Shown: in pieces, positions 12,585-26,455 of the stretch
Layout: each line of letters begins with the position of its first letter
Position numbering within the stretch: position 1 is the stretch's first letter
Origin: Cupriavidus pauculus
GTDB taxonomy: Bacteria > Pseudomonadota > Gammaproteobacteria > Burkholderiales > Burkholderiaceae
Direction of reading: 5' to 3'
Assembly: GCF_022179805.1 (NCBI RefSeq)
Contig: NZ_BPUO01000005.1
Span: forward strand, 248,001-312,000
Length of the DNA stretch: 64,000 bases
The notes under the pieces: generated by a model
The model's database searches: none
What the model was told of the DNA's origin: nothing
The model's input: only the letters and a program-made list of their open reading frames with translations
Position numbers and translations under genes: made by a program

Positions 12585-15500
12585 ATGCTGCGCCGGCGTC
12601 CCTTTCGCGCCTCCGACCCATCCAGCCTGCCCCCCGACGTGTTCGTACTTTCCGCCGTGTACCGGCGTCTGCTGCCGTTCCTGATCGGCCTGTGCCTGTT
12701 GCTGCCCGCGCTGGCCGGTGCGGCGCCGGTGCGCGTGGTGGTGGTGGCGTCGCAGACCCATCTGCTGCCGGCGGCGGCCGAAGCGTTTCGCGCCGCGCAC
12801 GGTAGCGGCGTGGCGGAATTCACCTTCCCGACAACCGCGCCCGATGCCGAGGTGCTGTCCCGGGCCGACGTGATCGAAGCGTGGTTCGTGCCCGGCGCGG
12901 TGCTGCGCCAGATGGCCCCGGGCGTGCAGCGAGCGCAGGCTCGGGGCGCGTTGATCCTGGCCACGCCTGCCGAGACAGCCGAGGCGAACTGGCGGGTTCG
13001 CGTCGATGCCACGCGCAACACCGCCGCCCAGGCTTACTGGGATGCCGGCGGTGTCGACAATCTCGCGGGCTTCCTGGCCTATGTGGTCGCCGCGCGGCAG
13101 CAGGCGGCCGGCGTGCCACCCATCGCCGTGCCACCGGCCAGGCCGGCACCGGCTGCCGGCATCTATCATCCGCGCGCATCGCAACCGTTTGCGTCGCTGG
13201 CCGACTACCTGCGCTGGTATCGGCGCGACGGACGCGACGGACGTGTTGGCGCCGATGCGCCATTGGTCGGCATATCGTTCTACGCCACAAACTACCGCCA
13301 GCGCGACCTGGCCCACGTGGACGCGCTGGTGGATGCGCTGGAACGGCAGGGCATCGGCGCCGTGCCGGTGTTCGGATGGCCCATCTCCAGCCTCGATGCG
13401 TTGCTGACGCAGGATGGCGCCACGCCTTTGCGCGCGCTGCTGGCGCTGAACCTGACGATTCCACGTGCCGAAGACAAGGACTGGCTGGCCCGCCATGGCC
13501 TGCACACGCTGAACCTGATCGCCACGCGCGACAGCGCGGCGGCATGGCGTGCCGATGTGCGTGGCATTGGTGGTGATCGCCTGCCGTTGCTGCTGACCGC
13601 GCCCGAGCGCAGCGGCGCCACCGAACCGATCCTGTTCGCCACGCAGGAAGACAGCGATGGCGCCAAGGCCAGTGCCGCCGTGCCGGAGCGTGTCGACGCG
13701 ATTGTCGCGCGCGTGCGTCGGTGGATCGCGTTGCAGGACAAGCCGGCCGCCAGCAAGCACGTGGCGGTGCTCTACTACAACAACCCGCCCGGGCGCGGCA
13801 ATATCGGCGCGAGCTATCTGGCCACGCTGCCATCGCTCACGGCGATTCTGCAGCGGCTGCGCGCGGCCGGCTACGACACCGGCCAGGCATTGCCCGATAC
13901 CGCCACGCTGACTGCGCTGCTGGAGGCCAACGGCCGCAATATCGAGACCTGGTCGCCCGGCGAGCTCGACCGCATGGTGCGCGCGGGACACGTCAAGCTG
14001 CTGCCGCTGGCGCAGTACCGGCGCTGGTTCGATGCGCTGCCGGCGCCGTTCCGGCAGGCGGTGCTGCGTGCCTGGGGGCCGCCCGAACGCAACCCGCTGA
14101 TGCTGGCGCGCGATGCCGATGGCCAGCCCGCTTTCGTCGTGCCGGGCCTGTTCTTCGGCAAGGTCTTCGTCGGCCCGCAGCCGCTGCGCTCGACCTTTGC
14201 CCGGGCGATGGATGCGTCGCACGACACGATCACGCCACCGCCGCATTCCTACGTAGCCGCCTACCTCTGGTACCGCCATGGGTTTGGCGCCGACGCGGTG
14301 GTACACGTGGGGCGCCATGGCACGCTGGAATGGCTGCCGGGCAAGCAGGTGGGGCAGTCCGGCGACGATGCATCGGAGGTTCTTCTGGGCGATTTGCCCA
14401 ATGCCTATCTCTATATTCAGGACGGTGGCGGCGAGGCCATCCAGGCCAAGCGTCGCGGCGCCGCGGTGCTGGTCAGCCATCTGGCCCCGCTGCTGGCCGC
14501 GGCCGGGCAACCCCCGGTACTGGCATCGCTGGATGAAGCCATCGAACAGGCCGACGCCACACGCGAAAGTGCGCCCGAGTTGTCCGCGCAATACCGGCGA
14601 CAGGCGCTGGAGCAGATCCGCACGCTGAAGCTGGACCAGCAACTGGGCCTGGACGCCAATGCGCCGTGGGACACCATCGAGCCAGCCATCCACGCGTTCC
14701 TGCACAAGGTGGAAGCCGAGCCGATGCCGCTGGGTATCCACGCGCTGGGCCAGATGCCTCGGGACGCTGACCAGCTCGATGCGCTGGCCATGATGCTGGG
14801 CGCCCAGGTCAAGACCGACGCGGCACGGCTGCATGGCTGGGCCGCCGACCTGCTGGCCGGACGCGAACCCACCACCGCCAGTGACGCTGAACGGCGCGCA
14901 CTGGCCGCCGGCCGCCAATGGCTGGCGGATCTGCGCGCGTCGCCGCAGGCGGAGCTGGACGGGCTGGTCACGGTGCTGTCGGGCCGCTACCTGCCAAGCG
15001 GCCCGCTGGGTGACCCGGTGCGCGTGCCCGACGGCCTGCCCACGGGCCGCAATCTGCACGCGTTCGACGGTGCCCGGATTCCCACGCGCGCGGCGTGGGC
15101 GCTGGGCAAGCAGATGGCGGGGCAGACGCTGGACCGCTTCCGGCGCGAGCACGGCAAATGGCCGGATACGGTATCGATGGTGCTCTGGTACGGCGAAACG
15201 GAGCGGCACCAGGGCGCCATGGAAGCCGAGGCGCTGTACCTGATGGGCGTGGAGCCGGTCTGGAACGCGCGCGGCACGGTGGAAGACGTGCGGCTTATTC
15301 CCGATGCCGAACTGGGCCGGCCGCGCATCAATGTGCTGCTGACGACTTCCGGCATCTACCGCGACGGGTTTGGCGACAAGATCGCCTTGCTCGACAAGGC
15401 CGCGCGGCTGGCCGCCGCTGCCGGAGAAAATGCAATTAGCCGCCATGATCGGGACGTCGCCGCAGAGTTGGGCCGGCAGGGCGTGGACCCGGAACAGGCC

Positions 15501-16637
15501 AGCAGACTGGCCAGGGCGCGCGTATTCGCGGCCAAGCCGGGCAACTATTCCATCGGCGTGCAGCAGATGGTCGAGCAGAGCCGTGACGCGCAGGGGCCGC
15601 CAGACGCGCTGGCGCGCCAATACCTGCGCTACATGAACTTCGCCTACTCGGCCGACGGCTGGGGCGAATCGGCGCCGGGCGCGTTGTCGAGCCACCTGAA
15701 GTCCAACCAGGCGGTGCTGTTCTCGCGCGCCAGCACGCTGTACGGCGCGCTGGACAACGACGATACCTACCAGTACGCGGGCGGGCTGACTGCCGCCACG
15801 CGCGCGGTCAGCGGCACCGCGCCGCCGCTGTGGCTGCACAACCTGCGCCGAGCGGGCGAAACGCAGACCGTGGATGCCCGCACTTGGCTGGCCACCGAGC
15901 TCAACGCACGGCAGTGGAACCCGAAATGGATCACCGCGATGCAGCGCTCTGGCTACGCCGGCGCGCGCGAGATGTACAAGGAAGTGGAGCACCTGTACGG
16001 GTTCCAGGCCACCGTGCCGGAGCAAATGGCGGGCGAGTTCTGGCAACGCACGTACGACGTATATGTGGCCGACAAGTCGAACCTGGGCATGGACGCCTTC
16101 TTCCGCGAAGCCAATCCGCACGCACGGCAGGGCATTCTGGCGCGCTTGCTGGAGGTGGACCGGCAGGGCAGCTATCGCTTTGCCGATGCCGAACGCCGCG
16201 ACCTGCTGCGCAAGTACGCGGAGAGCGTGCGGCGCGATGGCCTGTCGTGCACGGCCAATACCTGCGGCAATCCGGTCCTGATGGCGCATATCGCGCGCGC
16301 CGGCCGGCAGGCGGGTATCGACATGAAGCCGGTGGGTCGCGAACTGGCGCAGGCAGTGGTGGGACCTGCCGCAGCACGTGCGCAGGTCGCGCCGCGCACC
16401 GCGCCGGCACCGAAGTCCTTGTCGCCCACACCGTCGGCCGCCGCAGCCCCTGCCGCGCCTGCCAACGCGCAGGCGCCCACCGAACACGTCAGCGGCCAGC
16501 GGCTGGCACCGCGCGTGGCGCCGGCGCCCAGTAGGGCCGTCGAACATGCCGCGCATCCGTTGCTGGCTATCCTGCTGGCCGCGCTGACCCTTGGCGCGGG
16601 CGCGTATGCCGGCTGGCGCAGGGCACGGCGCGCGTAG
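12585..16637 (+). CDS. CobN-like metal chelatase large subunit, exported and membrane-anchored
   Basis: A 1350-aa CobN/BchH homologue keeping the family core HVGRHGTLEWLPGK near residue 575 and EAIQAKRRG near 620. Unlike cytoplasmic CobN it has a Sec signal peptide (about residues 26-46: YRRLLPFLIGLCLLLPALAG, cleavage near AGA-AP). It ends with an Ala/Pro-rich linker and a hydrophobic helix (about 1325-1343) closed by RRARRA, so the body should face the periplasm, anchored at the C-terminus. A CTANTC cysteine pair sits near 1227. Exported CobN-like proteins are known next to metal-uptake genes in other proteobacteria. A GTG at 12657 may be the true start. First gene of the cobN-chlD operon. 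Confidence 0.85.
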   Translation: MLRRRPFRASDPSSLPPDVFVLSAVYRRLLPFLIGLCLLLPALAGAAPVRVVVVASQTHLLPAAAEAFRAAHGSGVAEFTFPTTAPDAEVLSRADVIEAWFVPGAVLRQMAPGVQRAQARGALILATPAETAEANWRVRVDATRNTAAQAYWDAGGVDNLAGFLAYVVAARQQAAGVPPIAVPPARPAPAAGIYHPRASQPFASLADYLRWYRRDGRDGRVGADAPLVGISFYATNYRQRDLAHVDALVDALERQGIGAVPVFGWPISSLDALLTQDGATPLRALLALNLTIPRAEDKDWLARHGLHTLNLIATRDSAAAWRADVRGIGGDRLPLLLTAPERSGATEPILFATQEDSDGAKASAAVPERVDAIVARVRRWIALQDKPAASKHVAVLYYNNPPGRGNIGASYLATLPSLTAILQRLRAAGYDTGQALPDTATLTALLEANGRNIETWSPGELDRMVRAGHVKLLPLAQYRRWFDALPAPFRQAVLRAWGPPERNPLMLARDADGQPAFVVPGLFFGKVFVGPQPLRSTFARAMDASHDTITPPPHSYVAAYLWYRHGFGADAVVHVGRHGTLEWLPGKQVGQSGDDASEVLLGDLPNAYLYIQDGGGEAIQAKRRGAAVLVSHLAPLLAAAGQPPVLASLDEAIEQADATRESAPELSAQYRRQALEQIRTLKLDQQLGLDANAPWDTIEPAIHAFLHKVEAEPMPLGIHALGQMPRDADQLDALAMMLGAQVKTDAARLHGWAADLLAGREPTTASDAERRALAAGRQWLADLRASPQAELDGLVTVLSGRYLPSGPLGDPVRVPDGLPTGRNLHAFDGARIPTRAAWALGKQMAGQTLDRFRREHGKWPDTVSMVLWYGETERHQGAMEAEALYLMGVEPVWNARGTVEDVRLIPDAELGRPRINVLLTTSGIYRDGFGDKIALLDKAARLAAAAGENAISRHDRDVAAELGRQGVDPEQASRLARARVFAAKPGNYSIGVQQMVEQSRDAQGPPDALARQYLRYMNFAYSADGWGESAPGALSSHLKSNQAVLFSRASTLYGALDNDDTYQYAGGLTAATRAVSGTAPPLWLHNLRRAGETQTVDARTWLATELNARQWNPKWITAMQRSGYAGAREMYKEVEHLYGFQATVPEQMAGEFWQRTYDVYVADKSNLGMDAFFREANPHARQGILARLLEVDRQGSYRFADAERRDLLRKYAESVRRDGLSCTANTCGNPVLMAHIARAGRQAGIDMKPVGRELAQAVVGPAAARAQVAPRTAPAPKSLSPTPSAAAAPAAPANAQAPTEHVSGQRLAPRVAPAPSRAVEHAAHPLLAILLAALTLGAGAYAGWRRARRA

Positions 16638-16732
16638 CGGCACCGGCGGGCGGCTACCCGCCACGCCCAAATGGACAGCCTCCGCGTATGTCCGTATCCT
16701 GATCGCCTTTGCAAATCCAGCCCGATTACAGC

Positions 16733-17797
16733 ATGCAGACTTCCAAGATTCCGGCCACCATCGTCACGGGCTTCCTGGGCAGCGGCAAGACCACCTTGCT
16801 GCGCCATATCCTCGACAACGCCAACGGCCGCCGCATCGCGGTGATCGTCAACGAGTTCGGCGAACTGGGCATCGATGGCGAGATCCTCAAGGGTTGCGGC
16901 ATCGGTTGCGACGACGCTGGCGAGCCCACGGGCCAGCTCTATGAACTGGCCAATGGCTGCCTGTGCTGCACGGTGCAGGAAGAGTTCTTCCCGGTCATGG
17001 AACAGCTGCTGGAGCGCCGCGACCAGATCGACCACGTGCTGATCGAGACGTCGGGGCTGGCACTGCCCAAGCCGCTGGTGCAGGCCTTCCACTGGCCCAG
17101 CATCCGCAACGCGTTCACCGTGGACTCGGTGGTGACCGTGGTCGACGGCCCCGCCGCCGCTTCGGGCCAGTTCGCGGCCAATCCGGCCGCCGTGGACGAG
17201 CAGCGCCGCGCCGATCCGAACCTCGACCACGAATCGCCGCTGCACGAACTGTTCGAGGACCAGCTTGCCAGCGCGGACCTGGTCATCCTGAACAAGACCG
17301 ACCTGATGGACGCGGCGCAGATCGCCGCCGTGGAAGCGCTGGTGCGTCCCGAGATCCCGGCCGAGGTCAAGATCGTGCCGGCACAGGCCGGTTCGCTGGA
17401 TGTGAACAGCCTGCTGGGGCTGAATCGCGCGTCGGAAGACACGATCCACCTGCGTCCCGACCATCACGGCAGCGCCGACGATCCTGATCACGCCGACCAT
17501 CATCACGACGAATTCGACTCGGTGGTGGTGCAGGCCGGCACGGTGGAGCGCGATGCGCTGGTGGCGGCGCTGCAGAAGCTGGTGGCCGACCACACGATCT
17601 ATCGCGTGAAGGGCTTCGCCACGCTGCCGGGCAAGGCCATGCGCCTGGTGCTGCATGGCGTGGGCCAGCGCTTCGACAGCTATTTCGACCGCGCCTGGCG
17701 TGCCGGCGAGCCGCAAGGCACGCGTGTGGTGCTGATCGGGCAGGACCTGGACGGCGCCGTGCTGCAGGCGTCGCTGGATGCCGCGCTGGCGGCGTAA
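16733..17797 (+). CDS. cobW: CobW/COG0523 family GTPase, metal chaperone
   Basis: G3E-family P-loop GTPase of 354 aa. The P-loop is GFLGSGKTT (residues 13-21), the metal-binding CxCC motif is C76-L-C78-C79, and NKTD lies near 188. A histidine/aspartate-rich loop (DHHGSADDPDHADHHHDEF) separates the GTPase and C-terminal domains and would bind Co, Zn or Ni. CobW is thought to deliver cobalt for cobalamin synthesis. The start is the ATG at 16733; a TTG at 16709 is in frame but unneeded. It sits between the exported and cytoplasmic CobN genes, 12 bases before the latter. Confidence 0.92.
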   Translation: MQTSKIPATIVTGFLGSGKTTLLRHILDNANGRRIAVIVNEFGELGIDGEILKGCGIGCDDAGEPTGQLYELANGCLCCTVQEEFFPVMEQLLERRDQIDHVLIETSGLALPKPLVQAFHWPSIRNAFTVDSVVTVVDGPAAASGQFAANPAAVDEQRRADPNLDHESPLHELFEDQLASADLVILNKTDLMDAAQIAAVEALVRPEIPAEVKIVPAQAGSLDVNSLLGLNRASEDTIHLRPDHHGSADDPDHADHHHDEFDSVVVQAGTVERDALVAALQKLVADHTIYRVKGFATLPGKAMRLVLHGVGQRFDSYFDRAWRAGEPQGTRVVLIGQDLDGAVLQASLDAALAA

Positions 17798-17809: not shown

Positions 17810-20800
17810 ATGCACCTGCTGTCCACCCGGCCCGGCGGCTTTGTCGATGACAACGCCGTCGTGCTGCGCATCGAGCAGACGCCGGGAGACATCGTCGTCC
17901 TGAGCGCGGCCGATACCACGCTGTCGCTGCTGGCCGGCGCGGTACCCAGGCTGGGTGCCGACTATCCGGCCGTGCGGCTGGCCAACCAGATGTACCTGCG
18001 CCAGCCGGCGTCGCTCGATTTGTATATCGACGAAGTGCTGCAGCACGCGCGCGTGGTGGTGGTGGACCATCTTGGCGGCGCCAGCGACTGGGCCTACGGG
18101 CTGGAACGCCTGCCCGAACTGGCCCGTGCGCGCGGCCAGTTGCTGGTGATGTTCTCGGGCGATCTGACCGAGGACGACAACCTGGCCCGCCTGGGCAACG
18201 CGCCGCCCGGCTTGTCGCATCAGCTCTGGGGCTATCTGCGCGAGGGCGGGGCGGGCAACGCCGAGCAATTCTTCCGCTGCCTGGGGCAGCACGCCTTCGG
18301 CCATCAGGCTCCCGTGCTGCCCGTGCAGGTATTGCCGCAGGCCACGCTGTACCACCGTGCGCATGGCGTGGCGACGGTGCAGGACTGGCGGCGCGAATGG
18401 GCATTGCGCGGCTGCGCGGGCGGCCCGGTGGTGGCGCTACCGTTCTACCGGTCGCACCTGCAGGCCGGCAACACCGATGTCTTCGATGCGCTGGCCGATG
18501 CGCTGCTCGATGCCGGCATATGCCCGTTGCCACTGGCTGTGAGTTCGCTCAAGGAGCCACTGTGCCGCGAGGTGCTGCAGCGGCTGTGCGACGCGCACGG
18601 CGTGGCGCTGGTGCTCAATACCACGGCGTTCTCGGTAGCATCGCTCGATGCTGCGGCTGACGCCGACGCACCGCTGGCCAACGACGCCCCGGTGCTGCAG
18701 GTGATCCTGAGCGGCGGCAACCGCGAGGATTGGCTGGCCGACAGCCAGGGCCTGGGCACGCGCGACGTGGCCATGCACGTGGCCATGCCCGAGGTCGACG
18801 GCCGCATCATCACGCGCGCGGTCAGCTTCAAGGGCCTGGCGTATCGCTGCCCCCATACCGAGGTCGACGTGGTGCGCTACCAGCCCGACGCCGAGCGCGT
18901 GCGCTTTGTCGCCGAACTGGCGCGCCGCTGGTGCCGCCTGCGCACACTGCCGGCCGCTGAAAAGCGTGTGGCACTGGTGCTGGCCAACTATCCGGCCAGC
19001 GAAGGGCGTATCGGCAATGGCGTCGGGCTGGACACGCCCGCGTCGGTCGTGGGCATCCTGGCGATGCTGCGCGATGCCGGATATGCAGTGGGTCCGCTGC
19101 CTGCCGATGGCGATGCGCTGATGCGCGGCCTGACGCAAGGCGTCACCAACGATCTGGACCAGCACGCATGGCGGCCCGCGTTCCAGAGCGTGGCGATGGC
19201 CGACTACAAGGCGTGGCTGGCGCAGTTGCCGCAGGCCGGGCAGGATGCCATCGCGGCGCGCTGGGGTGCGCCGGAGGCCGATCCGATGGTGCGCGACGGA
19301 CGCTTCATGGTGGCTGGCGTACGCACGGGCAACGTGTTCGTCGGTATCCAGCCGGCGCGCGCCTACGGCGTGGATGGCTACGCGAGTTACCACGATGCCG
19401 AGCTGGTGCCGCCGCACGGCTACCTGGCGTTCTACTTCTGGCTGCGACACGTGTTTGCCATCGACGCGGTGGTGCACGTGGGCAAGCATGGCAACCTGGA
19501 ATGGCTGCCGGGCAAGAGCGTGGCGCTGTCCGCCGACTGCTGGCCCGACGCGATCCTGGGGCCGCTGCCGCATCTCTATCCGTTCATCGTCAATGACCCG
19601 GGCGAAGGCGCGCAGGCCAAGCGGCGCACCCAGGCCGTGATCATCGACCACCTGATGCCGCCGCTCACGCGCGCGGAGAACTACGGGCCGCTGCAGGACC
19701 TGGAGCGCCAGGTCGACGAATACTACGAGGCGCTGAGTATCGATCCGCGCCGCGCCAGGCTGCTGCGGCGTGAGATCCTGAAATCGATCGTCGGCCAGCA
19801 ACTGCATCGCGAACTCGGCATCGACGCGCCGGCCAATGGCGCCGAGGAAGACGCGCTGTTGAACCGCACCGATGCCTGGCTGTGCGAACTCAAGGAGTCG
19901 CAGATCCGGGATGGGCTGCATGTGTTCGGCATGTCGCCGCAGGGCCGGCAGCGTCGCGATACGCTGGCCGCGCTGGGGCGATTCCCGGTGGGCGATGGCG
20001 CCGACGGCCGGTCCGGGCTGCTGACCGCGCTGGCGGCGGACCTGTCGCTGGGTGATGGCTTTGATCCGCTCGATGCCGACTGGGCCGCGCCGTGGACCGG
20101 GCCGCGTCCCGACGTACTGGCAGCCATCGACGAATCGCCGTGGCGCCACCACGGCGATACGCGCGAGCGGCTGGAAGCACTGGTGCTGCGCCTGCTCGAC
20201 AACGACGCCGCGCCCGGACCGCGCTCGGCGGCCGTGCTGGCACGCCTGCGCGAACAGGTGGCGCCGCGCCTCGATGCCTGCGGCGGACAGGAACTGCTGC
20301 AACTCGAACGTGGGCTGGCGGGCCGTTTCGTGCCGGCGGGCCCGAGCGGCGCGCCGTCGCGCGGGCGTCCCGACGTATTGCCCACCGGGCGCAATTTCTA
20401 TTCGGTCGATACGCGCGCGGTGCCCACGCGCACCGCATGGACGCTGGGGCTGCGCTCGGCCAGCCAGTTGATCGAGCGACATCTGCAGGAGCACGGCGAA
20501 TACCCGCGCGCGGTGGGGCTGTCGGTGTGGGGCACGGCGACCATGCGCACCGGGGGCGACGATATCGCGCAGGCGATGGCGCTGCTTGGCGTGCGGCCTA
20601 AATGGGCGCACGGCAGCCATCGCGTGGTCGATTTCGAGATACTGCCGATGACGGTGTTCGACCGGCCGCGCGTGGACGTGACGCTGCGGGTGTCGGGCTT
20701 TTTCCGCGATGCGTTTGCCAACCTGGTGTCGCTGTTCGATGCCGCCGTGCGGGCCGTGGCTGCGCTCGACGAGCCGGCCGACGTGAATCCCGTGCGCGCC

Positions 20801-21592
20801 CGCGTGCTGGCCGAACAGGCCGAGCTGGAGGCGCAGGGCCTGCCGGCCGACGCCGCACGCGAACGTGCGAGCTGGCGCGTGTTCGGCGCGCGTCCCGGCG
20901 ACTACGGCACCGGGCTGCAGAACCTGATCGATGGACGGAGCTGGCAGACCGATGGCGACCTGGCGCACGCCTACCTGCAGGCGGGGGGCTACGCCTACGG
21001 CCAGCGTGCCGATGGCATCGAGGCACGCGACACGTTTGCGGCCAGGCTGGCCGGGATCGATGCAGTGGTACAGAACCAGGACAACCGCGAGCACGACATT
21101 CTCGATGCCAACGACTACTACCAGTTCCAGGGCGGCATGGTGGCGGCGGTGCGCCATCTGGGCGGCGTGCAACCGGCGATCTATCACGGCGACCACGCCA
21201 ACCCGGCGGCGCCGCGCGTGCGCACGCTCAACGAGGAAATTGCGCGCGTGATCCGTACGCGCGTGGTCAATCCGAAGTGGATCGACGGTGTGCGCCGCCA
21301 CGGCTACAAGGGCGCATTCGAAATGGCCGCGACCGTGGACTACCTGTTCGGCTATGACGCCACCGCGCGCGTGGTGGGCGATCACCAGTACGCGCTGGTG
21401 GCCGACGCCTACGTGCACGACGCCGCCACGCGCGATTTCCTGGCGCAACACAATCCGCGCGCGCTGCAGTCCATCTGCGAGCGGCTGCTGGAAGCCATGG
21501 AGCGCGGGCTCTGGCAGGAGCCGGGCGACCAGAAGGCGCGGATCGAACACCATCTGCTTGACAACGAACAGCGTCTGGAAGGGATGCAATGA
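17810..21592 (+). CDS. cobN: Cobaltochelatase large subunit CobN (cytoplasmic)
   Basis: 1260-aa large subunit that inserts cobalt into hydrogenobyrinate a,c-diamide with ATP-driven small and medium subunits. Core motif HVGKHGNLEWLPGKS near residue 555 is followed by LPHLYPFIVNDPGEGAQAKR and DHLMPPLTRA, all typical of true CobN. No signal peptide or membrane helix, in contrast with the paralogue at 12585. Its stop overlaps the chlI start by four bases (ATGA at 21589-21592), showing tight translational coupling with the motor subunits. Confidence 0.95.
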   Translation: MHLLSTRPGGFVDDNAVVLRIEQTPGDIVVLSAADTTLSLLAGAVPRLGADYPAVRLANQMYLRQPASLDLYIDEVLQHARVVVVDHLGGASDWAYGLERLPELARARGQLLVMFSGDLTEDDNLARLGNAPPGLSHQLWGYLREGGAGNAEQFFRCLGQHAFGHQAPVLPVQVLPQATLYHRAHGVATVQDWRREWALRGCAGGPVVALPFYRSHLQAGNTDVFDALADALLDAGICPLPLAVSSLKEPLCREVLQRLCDAHGVALVLNTTAFSVASLDAAADADAPLANDAPVLQVILSGGNREDWLADSQGLGTRDVAMHVAMPEVDGRIITRAVSFKGLAYRCPHTEVDVVRYQPDAERVRFVAELARRWCRLRTLPAAEKRVALVLANYPASEGRIGNGVGLDTPASVVGILAMLRDAGYAVGPLPADGDALMRGLTQGVTNDLDQHAWRPAFQSVAMADYKAWLAQLPQAGQDAIAARWGAPEADPMVRDGRFMVAGVRTGNVFVGIQPARAYGVDGYASYHDAELVPPHGYLAFYFWLRHVFAIDAVVHVGKHGNLEWLPGKSVALSADCWPDAILGPLPHLYPFIVNDPGEGAQAKRRTQAVIIDHLMPPLTRAENYGPLQDLERQVDEYYEALSIDPRRARLLRREILKSIVGQQLHRELGIDAPANGAEEDALLNRTDAWLCELKESQIRDGLHVFGMSPQGRQRRDTLAALGRFPVGDGADGRSGLLTALAADLSLGDGFDPLDADWAAPWTGPRPDVLAAIDESPWRHHGDTRERLEALVLRLLDNDAAPGPRSAAVLARLREQVAPRLDACGGQELLQLERGLAGRFVPAGPSGAPSRGRPDVLPTGRNFYSVDTRAVPTRTAWTLGLRSASQLIERHLQEHGEYPRAVGLSVWGTATMRTGGDDIAQAMALLGVRPKWAHGSHRVVDFEILPMTVFDRPRVDVTLRVSGFFRDAFANLVSLFDAAVRAVAALDEPADVNPVRARVLAEQAELEAQGLPADAARERASWRVFGARPGDYGTGLQNLIDGRSWQTDGDLAHAYLQAGGYAYGQRADGIEARDTFAARLAGIDAVVQNQDNREHDILDANDYYQFQGGMVAAVRHLGGVQPAIYHGDHANPAAPRVRTLNEEIARVIRTRVVNPKWIDGVRRHGYKGAFEMAATVDYLFGYDATARVVGDHQYALVADAYVHDAATRDFLAQHNPRALQSICERLLEAMERGLWQEPGDQKARIEHHLLDNEQRLEGMQ

Positions 21593-22674
21593 CCCACTCG
21601 GCTCACTCGGCTCATTCGGCCCAAGGCGCGGCAATGCGCCCGATCTTTCCGTTCAGTGCCCTGGTGGGGCAGTCGGCGCTGCAGCAGGCGCTGCTGCTGG
21701 CGGCCGTGGACCCCGGCATCGGCGGCGTGCTGGTCACGGGCCCGCGCGGCACGGCCAAGTCCACGGCGGCGCGTGCGCTGGCTGAGCTGCTGCCGCATGG
21801 GCAGTTCGTGACGCTGCCGCTGGGCGCCAGCGAAGAGCAATTGACCGGCACGCTCGACCTGGGCCATGTGCTGCGGCAGGGCGAGGTGCGGTTCCAACCC
21901 GGCCTGCTGGCGCGCGCGCACGACGGCGTGCTGTACGTCGACGAAGTCAACCTGTTGCCCGATCCGCTGGTGGACCAGTTGCTCGACGTGGCGGCCAGTG
22001 GCGTCAACGTGGTGGAGCGCGACGGCGTATCGCACCAGCATCCAGCGCGGTTCGTGCTGGTCGGCACGATGAATCCGGAAGAGGGCGAGCTGCGGCCGCA
22101 ATTGCTGGACCGCTTCGGGCTGGCGCTGGCCCTGTCGAACTACGACGATCCGGCCGAACGGCAGGCGATCGTGCGCGCACGGCTGGCGTTCGAGTCCGAC
22201 CCCGCCGCGTTTCGTGCTGCTGTGGCGCAGCGCCAGGACGAACTGGCGCGCCAGGTGGTGCGCGCCCGCGCGGCGCTGGGTGCGCTGGATTTTGGCGATG
22301 CCGTGCACGACCGCGTCAGCGCCTTGTGCCTGGAGGCCGCCGTGGACGGCGTGCGCGCGGATCTGGTAATGCTGCGTGCCGCGCGGGCACTGGCTGCATG
22401 GCAGGGCGCGGCGGCCATCGACGCCAGTCACGTCGATGCCGTGGCCGAACTGGTGCTGCATCACCGCCGCCATACGACAGCGCCGCAGCAGCCTGCCCAG
22501 CCGGCGCCATCGTCCGCCGGCAGTCATGCCGATGATGCCGAAGGTGCCGATGGCACGAACACCGGCGATGCCGAAGCCAATCCCTGGGGCGCGATGCCGC
22601 CGCCCCAGCCGGCCGGCATTGCCAACGTCAAGCCGCTGAAGCCGTTCAGGAAGCTGCCGCCAAAAAAAGCCTGA
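21589..22674 (+). CDS. chlI: ChlI-type AAA+ small subunit of the cobalt chelatase (unshifted product)
   Basis: 361-aa AAA+ ATPase of the magnesium-chelatase ChlI/BchI family, used here with CobN. Walker A is GPRGTAKST (residues 51-59), Walker B VLYVDEVN (114-121), and a GTMNPEEGELRPQLLDRFG arginine-finger/sensor region follows. The N-terminus carries HSA repeats, so M16 (MRPIFPFSALVGQ) may be the real start. The C-terminal 70 residues are an acidic Pro/Ala/Asp-rich linker like that joining AAA+ and VWA domains in ChlD. The frame ends at a TGA six bases after an A7 run, where -1 slippage would continue into the VWA domain. Confidence 0.9.
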   Translation: MTHSAHSAHSAQGAAMRPIFPFSALVGQSALQQALLLAAVDPGIGGVLVTGPRGTAKSTAARALAELLPHGQFVTLPLGASEEQLTGTLDLGHVLRQGEVRFQPGLLARAHDGVLYVDEVNLLPDPLVDQLLDVAASGVNVVERDGVSHQHPARFVLVGTMNPEEGELRPQLLDRFGLALALSNYDDPAERQAIVRARLAFESDPAAFRAAVAQRQDELARQVVRARAALGALDFGDAVHDRVSALCLEAAVDGVRADLVMLRAARALAAWQGAAAIDASHVDAVAELVLHHRRHTTAPQQPAQPAPSSAGSHADDAEGADGTNTGDAEANPWGAMPPPQPAGIANVKPLKPFRKLPPKKA

Positions 22675-23354
22675 GCCACCGGCGGCCGTCGGCAACGGAC
22701 CGGCAGGGCGGCCATCGGTGGCGGACACCTCGACCCATCGCACTCCGGCATGCCGTGCAGGGCGGGCAGCCCGGCAGCCGCATCCACTGGCCGCGCACGC
22801 TCGGTGCCAAACGGCAGGCGCCGCTTGATTCCGGCCACCTGCGCTTCCGGCGCGCCGACGCGCGAGCCGGCGTACTGCATTGCTTCGTCCTGGACTGCTC
22901 GGGCTCGATGGCCCATGGCGAACAACTGGCGCTGGCCAAGGGCGTGCTGGTGCGGCTGATCGAACGCGCGTACCAGTCGCGTGCGGACGTGGCGCTGGTC
23001 TGCTTTGCCGGGCAACACGCCGAAGTGCGGCTGGCGCCATCGCGTGCACGTCCGTGGAATGACGACTGGATCCGGCCGATTGCCGGCGGTGGTGGCACGC
23101 CGCTGCGGCTGGGTGTGGCGCGTGCCGACCAGTTACTGGCCCGCCAGGCCCGCCGCCAGCCCGCGCAGCAGCGCTGGCTGTGGCTGCTGACCGATGGCCG
23201 TAGCGCCGAGGCGCCGGCGCGCCCGGACTGTGCCGATCACCTCGTGGTGGTGGACGTCGAACGCCATGCGCTGCCGCTGGGCCTCTGCCTGCGGCTGGCG
23301 AGCGAATGGGACGCCGACTACCGCACCGCTGATTCGCTTGCGATCGAGGCCTAA
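21589..23354 (+). CDS. chlD: ChlD-type AAA+/VWA medium subunit made by -1 frameshift at 22668
   Basis: Join of 21589-22668 and 22668-23354, giving about 588 aa. The AAA+ half and the acidic linker come from the chlI frame, and the -1 frame continues without a stop into a von Willebrand A domain. The MIDAS residues are D436-x-S438-x-S440 (VLDCSGSM), the GGGGTPL threonine and the LTDGRS aspartate. The VWA frame has no ATG, and its first usable codon is a GTG at 22755 without a ribosome site, so an independent VWA gene is less likely. ChlD bridges the ATPase ring to CobN. An alternative is a genuine frameshift mutation, made unlikely by the full signal. Confidence 0.8.
22648..22702 (+). promoter_or_regulatory. 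Programmed -1 ribosomal frameshift signal (chlI to chlD)
   Basis: Three elements line up. A Shine-Dalgarno-like AGGAAG (22648-22653) lies eight bases before the slippery run. The heptamer A-AAA-AAA (22662-22668) is in phase with the zero frame codons CCA AAA AAA GCC TGA. A stem-loop CGGCCGT/ACGG(A)CCG (22683-22702) begins 14 bases after the slip site. The layout resembles the dnaX frameshift site. Frameshifting in chlD genes that lets one gene make both small and medium subunits is described in the literature. Confidence 0.8.
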
Positions 23355-25781: not shown

Positions 25782-25885
25782 CAGCTTGCAAGGCAGGCCG
25801 GGACAGACCGCTGAAATTGCAGCACGAACCCATTGCCACGCGATCGACAACGAACCAGATCGCCCGGCATCGCAAGGAGAGCATC

Positions 25886-26455
25886 ATGAACGCCAAGACC
25901 ATCCTGACCGCCGCCGCCCTCGCAGCCGCTTTCGTAACGGGCGCAGCCCAAGCCTCGCAGCCGACCGGTGAAGCCTACGGTTATTCGTATCGTGTGAACG
26001 ACCAACGCAGCACCTTCACTGACGGCGCCCGCATCGGCAACCGTGACCCCTTTACCGACGGCGCCCGCATCGGCAACCGCGATGCCTTCACCGACGGTGC
26101 CCGCGTAACGAACCGTGATGGCCTGGTTGCCGGCATCGGTTCGCGTGATGTCTACACCGACGGTGCCCGCGTCACCAACCGCGACGGCCTGGTTGCCAGC
26201 ATCGGTTCGCGTGACGTCTACACCGACGGTGCCCGCATCACCAACCGCGACGGCTTTAGCGACGGTGCCCGCACCGCCGACCCGTACCTTGATGGCGCCC
26301 GCTTCGTAGCCGGCCTGGACACCAAGGGTGTTTCGGCAAGCCCGGGCCGCACTGTCGATCCGTACCTGGACGGCGCCCGTGGCAACGGTCCGCGCAACCC
26401 GTACTTTGACGGTGCCCGCTCGACCGACGTCTACACCGACGGCGCCCTGGCCTGA
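25886..26455 (+). CDS. Secreted tandem-repeat protein with ten [FY]xDGA[RL] motifs
   Basis: 189 aa. Residues 1-23 are a Sec signal peptide (cleavage after AAQA), and AAGGAGA lies five bases before the ATG. The mature part is almost wholly repeats: [FY]TDGAR[I/V][G/T]NRD units of 12 residues, two 22-residue units that insert a GLVAGIGSRDV-type segment, then looser YLDGAR and YFDGAR units. I count ten DGA motifs and no cysteine. I do not recognise the family. The periodic Asp/Arg and aromatic residues suggest a beta-solenoid-like or disordered metal- or surface-binding protein. TetR operators upstream suggest inducible expression. Confidence 0.8.
   Translation: MNAKTILTAAALAAAFVTGAAQASQPTGEAYGYSYRVNDQRSTFTDGARIGNRDPFTDGARIGNRDAFTDGARVTNRDGLVAGIGSRDVYTDGARVTNRDGLVASIGSRDVYTDGARITNRDGFSDGARTADPYLDGARFVAGLDTKGVSASPGRTVDPYLDGARGNGPRNPYFDGARSTDVYTDGALA
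26015..26452 (+). repeat. Tandem coding repeats (36-bp and 66-bp units)
   Basis: Units start at 26015, 26051 and 26087 with a 36-base period. A 66-base unit starting GGCCTGGTTGCC is duplicated at 26120 and 26186 with only a few differences, which indicates recent in-frame duplication. Periods are multiples of three, so copy number can change without losing the frame. Confidence 0.85.

Follow-up and report, generated by a model that had tools for sequence, protein, structure and literature searches.

In Cupriavidus pauculus, a chlI-like gene directly downstream of cobN very probably gives rise to two motor subunits of a metal-inserting chelatase, a 361-residue ChlI-like protein and a 588-residue ChlD-like protein, by programmed -1 ribosomal frameshifting. 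The gene, here called chlI/D, was analysed within a 64,000-nucleotide stretch of contig NZ_BPUO01000005.1 (the window). The two-product reading had been put forward in an earlier note made from the window alone, and conservation of the junction across relatives together with covariation in a downstream RNA stem now strongly supports it. We infer that the shift takes place in C. pauculus and that its two products join the CobN encoded next to them.

Organization of the chlI/D gene

The following features, all on the forward strand, make up the gene and its proposed signal.

21589-22674, +, chlI-like open reading frame (ORF) in the 0 frame, 361 residues, 37.8 kDa, the predicted short product
22648-22653, +, AGGAAG, a Shine-Dalgarno (SD)-like box eight bases 5' of the A7 run, not conserved among relatives
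22662-22668, +, slippery heptamer A_AAA_AAA (A7), in phase
22668-23354, +, -1 frame, 228 residues after the slip, comprising a linker and a von Willebrand A (VWA) domain with a DxSxS motif; stop at 23352-23354
22672-22674, +, 0-frame stop TGA, one codon past the A7 run
22675-22722, +, predicted stimulatory hairpin, outer arms 22675-22682 with 22715-22722 and inner stem 22684-22690 with 22707-22713

The chlI-like ORF starts at an ATGA that overlaps the cobN stop and ends in CCA AAA AAA GCC TGA. It contains the residues GPRGTAKS and LYVDE, which we take to be Walker A-like and Walker B-like motifs, respectively. The -1 frame is open from 5' of the A7 run through to 23354 and includes a Pfam match to VWA at approximately 22884-23198; the predicted long product has a mass of 62.9 kDa, with KK followed by SLSHR at the slip junction. 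Each of the models TIGR02442 (putative cobaltochelatase) and TIGR02031 (ChlD) is matched by both parts, one section by the ChlI part and the next by the VWA part. In TIGR02442 the ChlI part aligns with model positions 88-342 and the VWA part with 457-615, and neither reaches the cut-off by itself. The AAA+ and VWA parts of one chelatase subunit are thus found in different frames, separated by a -1 shift. No separate small-subunit gene was found in the C. pauculus genome, the one genome to which this statement applies: searches for CobS and CobT as a second small or medium subunit returned no match, and beyond chlI/D the genome has six ChlI matches, all of them weak (E 4.7e-8 or worse). The window contains three A7 runs and one T7 run, and A_AAA_AAR, counted with overlaps, matches four times per strand, the chlI/VWA site accounting for two of the forward-strand matches.

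The earlier note had placed the A7 run in phase at 22662-22668 and the AGGAAG box eight bases upstream of it, and both are there. It had put the TGA six bases after the run and the stem 14 bases downstream; the stop begins three bases after the run, and the hairpin begins at 22675, directly 3' of the TGA and six bases past the run. A spacing of six bases is usual for stimulators of ribosomal frameshifting. The description of the -1 frame as open into the VWA domain without a start of its own also stood, the single candidate in the stretch examined being a GTG with an SD match of 2/6.

Ribosomes that stay in frame would read through A_AAA_AAA and stop at the TGA, releasing the ChlI-like AAA+ subunit. 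The hairpin would hinder some ribosomes, which would slip back by one base at the two lysine codons and go on to make the ChlD-like subunit, consisting of AAA+ domain, linker, and VWA domain.

Conservation of the junction in relatives

Junctions were read at 75 loci of the same family besides that of Cupriavidus sp. EM10 and at 80 named loci; removal of 9 duplicates left 147 distinct loci, the window included, and 154 genomes of the family have a chlI match. These loci represent the closest relatives of ChlI, with the named set made up of the best 80 of at least 592 confirmed, and more distant architectures are therefore under-sampled. Among the nearest named ChlI records are those of Cupriavidus sp. 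EM10 (92.6% over 78% of ChlI) and C. campinensis, with Cupriavidus sp. YR651 and C. basilensis OR16 also near among the matches listed. In a 95-tip tree, all 20 ChlI sequences from Cupriavidus fall into a single clade (support 0.989), whose sister is one tip; the parent node has a support of 0.768.

The VWA domain lies in the -1 frame at 144 of the 147 distinct loci, and all 144 have a slippery heptamer exactly one codon before the stop (A_AAA_AAA in 95, A_AAA_AAG in 49). The stop itself is TGA in 102, TAG in 41, and TAA in 1. An A-rich slippery site, in phase and just ahead of the 0-frame stop, is therefore conserved. Across the 75 family loci the first six A residues never vary; the seventh base is A in 72 of them and G in 3. 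The 42 Pseudomonas loci of the named set (within L115-L166) all carry A_AAA_AAG, followed by TAG in 37 and TGA in 5. The junction of C. campinensis MJ1, which was found separately, fits the same pattern.

The SD-like box fared differently. A match of at least 5/6 to AGGAGG in the 22 bases 5' of the slippery site was found at only 6 of 75 loci and a 6/6 match at none (raw counts, without a chance expectation), and the box was rejected as part of the signal. Of the SD-slippery-stem layout likened to that of dnaX in the earlier note, which had also called for an alignment of orthologues, the slippery site and the stem are borne out by conservation and the AGGAAG box is not.

The two parts of the gene are also conserved as protein. 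Among pairs of 18 Cupriavidus loci, median omega was 0.22 for chlI, 0.27 for the VWA part read in the -1 frame, and 0.49 for the linker, which indicates purifying selection on both chlI and the VWA part when each is read in its proposed frame.

Predicted downstream hairpin

Pairing of the stem was compared within and between loci. The first ten bases past the stop, which form the 5' arm, pair with the downstream segment of their own locus at 8.93 of 10 Watson-Crick positions on average. When arms were swapped between loci the mean fell to 7.01 of 10 (maximum 7.30 in 300 rounds), and with shuffled downstream sequence it was 6.46. This comparison used 152 loci, duplicates included, with the partner segment taken as the best match under every condition. 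Covariation was examined in a MAFFT alignment of 27 of 40 shortlisted loci, the 13 omitted having other loop lengths or belonging to more distant groups. In these 27 sequences, 88.0% of stem cells pair, against 79.3% in shuffles. Changes on both sides occur in 6 of the 10 stem pairs, giving 39 such cells against 12.2 in shuffles, a number that 0 of 500 shuffles reach; at alignment columns 5 and 56, for instance, the pair is CG in 13 sequences and UA in 13. The covariation indicates that stem pairing is maintained by compensatory changes, so that an RNA structure downstream of the slippery site has both prediction and covariation behind it. At five other loci the hairpin fold gave z-scores of -1.92 to -5.36, and the two Pseudomonas loci that were folded (L116 and L130) have a strong stem directly 3' of the stop.

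Several observations weigh against programmed frameshifting. The window hairpin folded alone is moderately unusual relative to shuffles (z -1.58, -2.71, and -2.36), and a 101-base stretch of the window starting upstream of the A7 run adopts a different fold that is no better than shuffles (z -0.32). In the 27-sequence alignment, further pair types in the stem are not above shuffles (12 against 11.6, reached by 259 of 500), and at the two innermost positions pairing is lost in 12 and 13 sequences. Two of the three loci without a VWA domain in the -1 frame also belong here. The alphaproteobacterial locus L165 has chlI and VWA as a single fused ORF. In Cupriavidus sp. EM10 (L014/L199), an A6 run, along with another change of frame within the tail of chlI, puts chlI and VWA in the same frame with a stop between them; these frame differences may be an assembly error. 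At the third locus, L022, the slippery site is present without a VWA match. The case for the frameshift signal rests on the comparative evidence.

Other explanations of the frame break

Transcriptional slippage, in which RNA polymerase would add or drop A residues within the run and ribosomes would translate the altered mRNA without slipping, is suggested by the seven-A run, and longer A runs are reported to work in this way elsewhere (PMC3711429). However, 49 of the 144 distinct loci have only six A residues followed by G, the heptamer of ribosomal slippage in dnaX (PMC3711429), and a covarying stem lies six bases downstream of the slippery site, at a spacing usual for ribosomal stimulators. 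We regard transcriptional slippage as very unlikely. The VWA part might instead be a separate protein made by reinitiation after the TGA, as stop and downstream frame lie close together. A scan for ATG, GTG, and TTG in the -1 frame, from the start of the open frame to 30 bases inside the VWA match, found candidates at 139 of 152 loci (duplicates included), ATG being among them at 46. Against this, 13 loci have no candidate, a start with an SD match of at least 5/6 occurs at only 9, and the commonest candidate position is common to only 33; in addition, the -1 peptide SLSHR...HWPRTL, conserved in the 18 Cupriavidus loci, starts right at the slip. Reinitiation accordingly appears highly improbable. 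The difference in the A count of EM10 might recall a sequencing error or a pseudogene accident, but as a general account this is already refuted by a break that recurs at one site in 144 of 147 distinct loci, and the low omega values on either side of the break also speak against it; its likelihood is negligible. Programmed -1 ribosomal frameshifting is the explanation preferred here.

Relation to known frameshifted genes

A paper by Antonov (2020, Mol Biol Evol) is said to deal with frameshifted chlD (fs-chlD) genes. The frameshift described here is of a known kind, its family having been described already, as the earlier note had stated. Antonov 2013 reported -1 frameshifted magnesium-chelatase genes from six genera, among them Burkholderia and Pseudomonas, and shifting in E. 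coli at 63, 40, and 10% for cassettes with 11, 9, and 7 A residues, respectively (PMC3711429). In Kuznetsov 2022 one fs-chlD gene yields both small and medium subunits, with Pseudomonas aeruginosa as an example (PMC9227772). The C. pauculus gene shares with these the -1 shift at an A run and the ChlI-like short and ChlD-like long products of a single gene, and is an additional, well-conserved case. No description of the chlI/D frameshift in Cupriavidus was found in the literature searched; the genome paper for C. pauculus MF1 lists cobS-T, cobN, and cobW as cobalt chelatases (PMC8941954).

Like E. coli dnaX, chlI/D combines A_AAA_AAR with a downstream hairpin and would give two products with a common N-terminal part. 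In dnaX, however, there is an SD-like stimulator and the shift leads to the shorter product (PMC3711429), whereas in chlI/D conservation does not extend to the SD-like box, and it is the longer product that the shift would yield. What relatives of chlI/D retain is thus the slippery site, the stop one codon on, and the stem abutting the stop. As in ChlI/ChlD and CobS/CobT, an AAA+ small subunit and an AAA+/VWA medium subunit are found with a large subunit of the CobN/ChlH type; in those systems the two are encoded by separate genes (PMC7689651), whereas in C. pauculus one gene is predicted to supply both.

Corrin-ring and late cobalamin genes

Sixty Cupriavidus genomes were compared, 54 of them at least 90% complete and at most 5% contaminated. 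chlI/D was found in 20, and cytosolic CobN (1314-1352 bits) in the same 20. Because cobN occurs in exactly these genomes, it is plausible that the frameshift balances the subunits for CobN, as the earlier note had proposed. The link it drew to cobalamin producers does not suit the C. pauculus genome. No match to CobH/CbiC was found in the C. pauculus genome or in any of the 60 Cupriavidus genomes, and in the C. pauculus genome no corrin-ring methyltransferase was seen (the ring methyltransferases were searched in this genome, and CobH in the other 59). Its four TP-methylase loci comprise two uroporphyrinogen-III methyltransferases and one RsmI, all above the cut-off, and one RsmI-like locus below it; since all four are assigned in this way, CobI, CobJ, CobM, and CobL were not seen. 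The genes that build the B12 ring thus appear to be missing from Cupriavidus, and it is odd that the enzyme is kept. In 299 genomes of the family, chlI was matched in 154 (E 1e-40) and CobH in 138, and CobH never occurred without chlI. Of the 16 genomes with chlI and without CobH, 13 belong to Cupriavidus; the remaining 3 are small, come from another genus (g12), and have weaker best chlI matches (E 1.0e-61 to 3.5e-60). The pathway-less cases of Kuznetsov 2022, Spirochaeta thermophila and Brevefilum fermentans, also lack the large subunit, whereas Cupriavidus has it (PMC9227772).

Later steps are represented in C. pauculus by CobB (L193), CobQ, CbiB, threonine-phosphate decarboxylase, CobU/P, cobalamin synthase, DBI phosphoribosyltransferase, and a histidine phosphatase. 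BtuB-, BtuC-, and BtuF-like genes are also present, those models being the best matches at scores below the cut-off, beside an ABC ATPase that best fits a heme-transport model, again below the cut-off. A second protein of the GATase_3 type (112-124 bits), identified as CobB in C. pauculus and taken as CobB elsewhere by score class, was found in 20 of 20 Cupriavidus genomes with chlI/D and in 8 of 40 without (Fisher p 7e-10, not corrected for kinship). A search for cobalamin riboswitches gave none at gathering score, either in the window or in seven loci (five from congeners and two other C. pauculus stretches), where the sole match was 6S RNA.

Role of the chelatase in Cupriavidus

Because a CobB-type protein and CobN-ChlI/D are retained together without ring synthesis, the gene content suggests a late route fed from outside. 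It is conceivable, and offered tentatively, that a third of Cupriavidus species use the frameshift-built cobaltochelatase (mostly with CobW), CobB, CobQ, and the nucleotide-loop genes to salvage metal-free corrins. A compound such as hydrogenobyrinic acid would then enter, be amidated by CobB, receive cobalt from CobN-ChlI/D, and be finished by CobQ and the enzymes that follow. If true, this would be corrin salvage before cobalt insertion.

A somewhat doubtful alternative is that CobN-ChlI/D acts on another tetrapyrrole together with the BtuS/HmuS-like product of a second CobN-family gene, which adjoins the module in 19 of the 20 genomes and is at a contig end in the remaining one. Shelton 2018 likewise suggested, for genomes without most corrin genes, that cobalt chelatase annotations reflect overlap with other metal chelatases (PMC6461909). 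The retained CobB-type protein points instead to a corrin a,c-diamide, and CobN scores far above the cut-off of the cobaltochelatase model. The module might also be left over from a lost cobalamin pathway and in decay, which would agree with the absence of CobH from all 60 genomes, the restriction of cobN and chlI/D to 20 of them, and the lack of cobW at the locus in 2 of these 20. This reading is nevertheless unlikely, as the VWA frame and slippery site are intact at 18 of 20 loci (the others being EM10 and L022), the chlI and VWA parts bear the marks of purifying selection, and the CobB-type protein is associated with chlI/D as given above. The genome context, which separates the chelatase from ring synthesis, matters more than the frameshift itself and turns the function of a cobaltochelatase in a cell with no corrin supply of its own into a directly testable question.

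Neighbouring CobN-family genes and cobW

Three genes precede chlI/D on the same strand.

12585-16637, +, second CobN-family protein, BtuS/HmuS-like, with N and C termini that are hydrophobic by eye
16709-17797, +, cobW (TIGR02475, 495.8 bits, cut-off 332.1)
17810-21592, +, cobN, cytosolic cobaltochelatase large subunit (TIGR02257, 1577.7 bits, cut-off 822.05)

cobW stands at the locus in 18 of the 20 Cupriavidus genomes with chlI/D; at L171 and L172 (G028 and G044), none was found between the BtuS-like gene and cobN. In 19 of these genomes the second CobN-family gene is found upstream, in pieces in the case of G005; in G008 it is at the contig end. Two genomes without chlI/D (G006 and G048) have a match in the same score class, and at 9 non-Cupriavidus loci compared the only matches to this protein were cross-matches to CobN itself. 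In some congeners it is preceded by an ExbB-like (L177, L178, and L183) or DUF2149-like (L181) gene, one of each having been tested by Pfam. Two congeners have an extra exported-looking protein of approximately 560-595 residues between the BtuS-like gene and cobW (L176, 8480-10168; L180, 8104-9891).

The second protein resembles BtuS and HmuS, the membrane-anchored CobN-family proteins of Bacteroides (PMC6460266 and PMC12583661). It differs from them in its surroundings: no TonB receptor was found among the upstream window ORFs tested, and the TonB set of the genome adjoins another CobN-like gene. This third CobN-family gene (L186, 7232-15293, in the C. pauculus genome, C7) is accompanied by a TonB heme-type receptor and by ExbB-like, DUF2149, and ChaN-like genes, and the group is an HmuS-type set in Cupriavidus. 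Elsewhere in the window, an ORF at 25817-26455 has, by eye, repeating TDGAR..NRD-like units.

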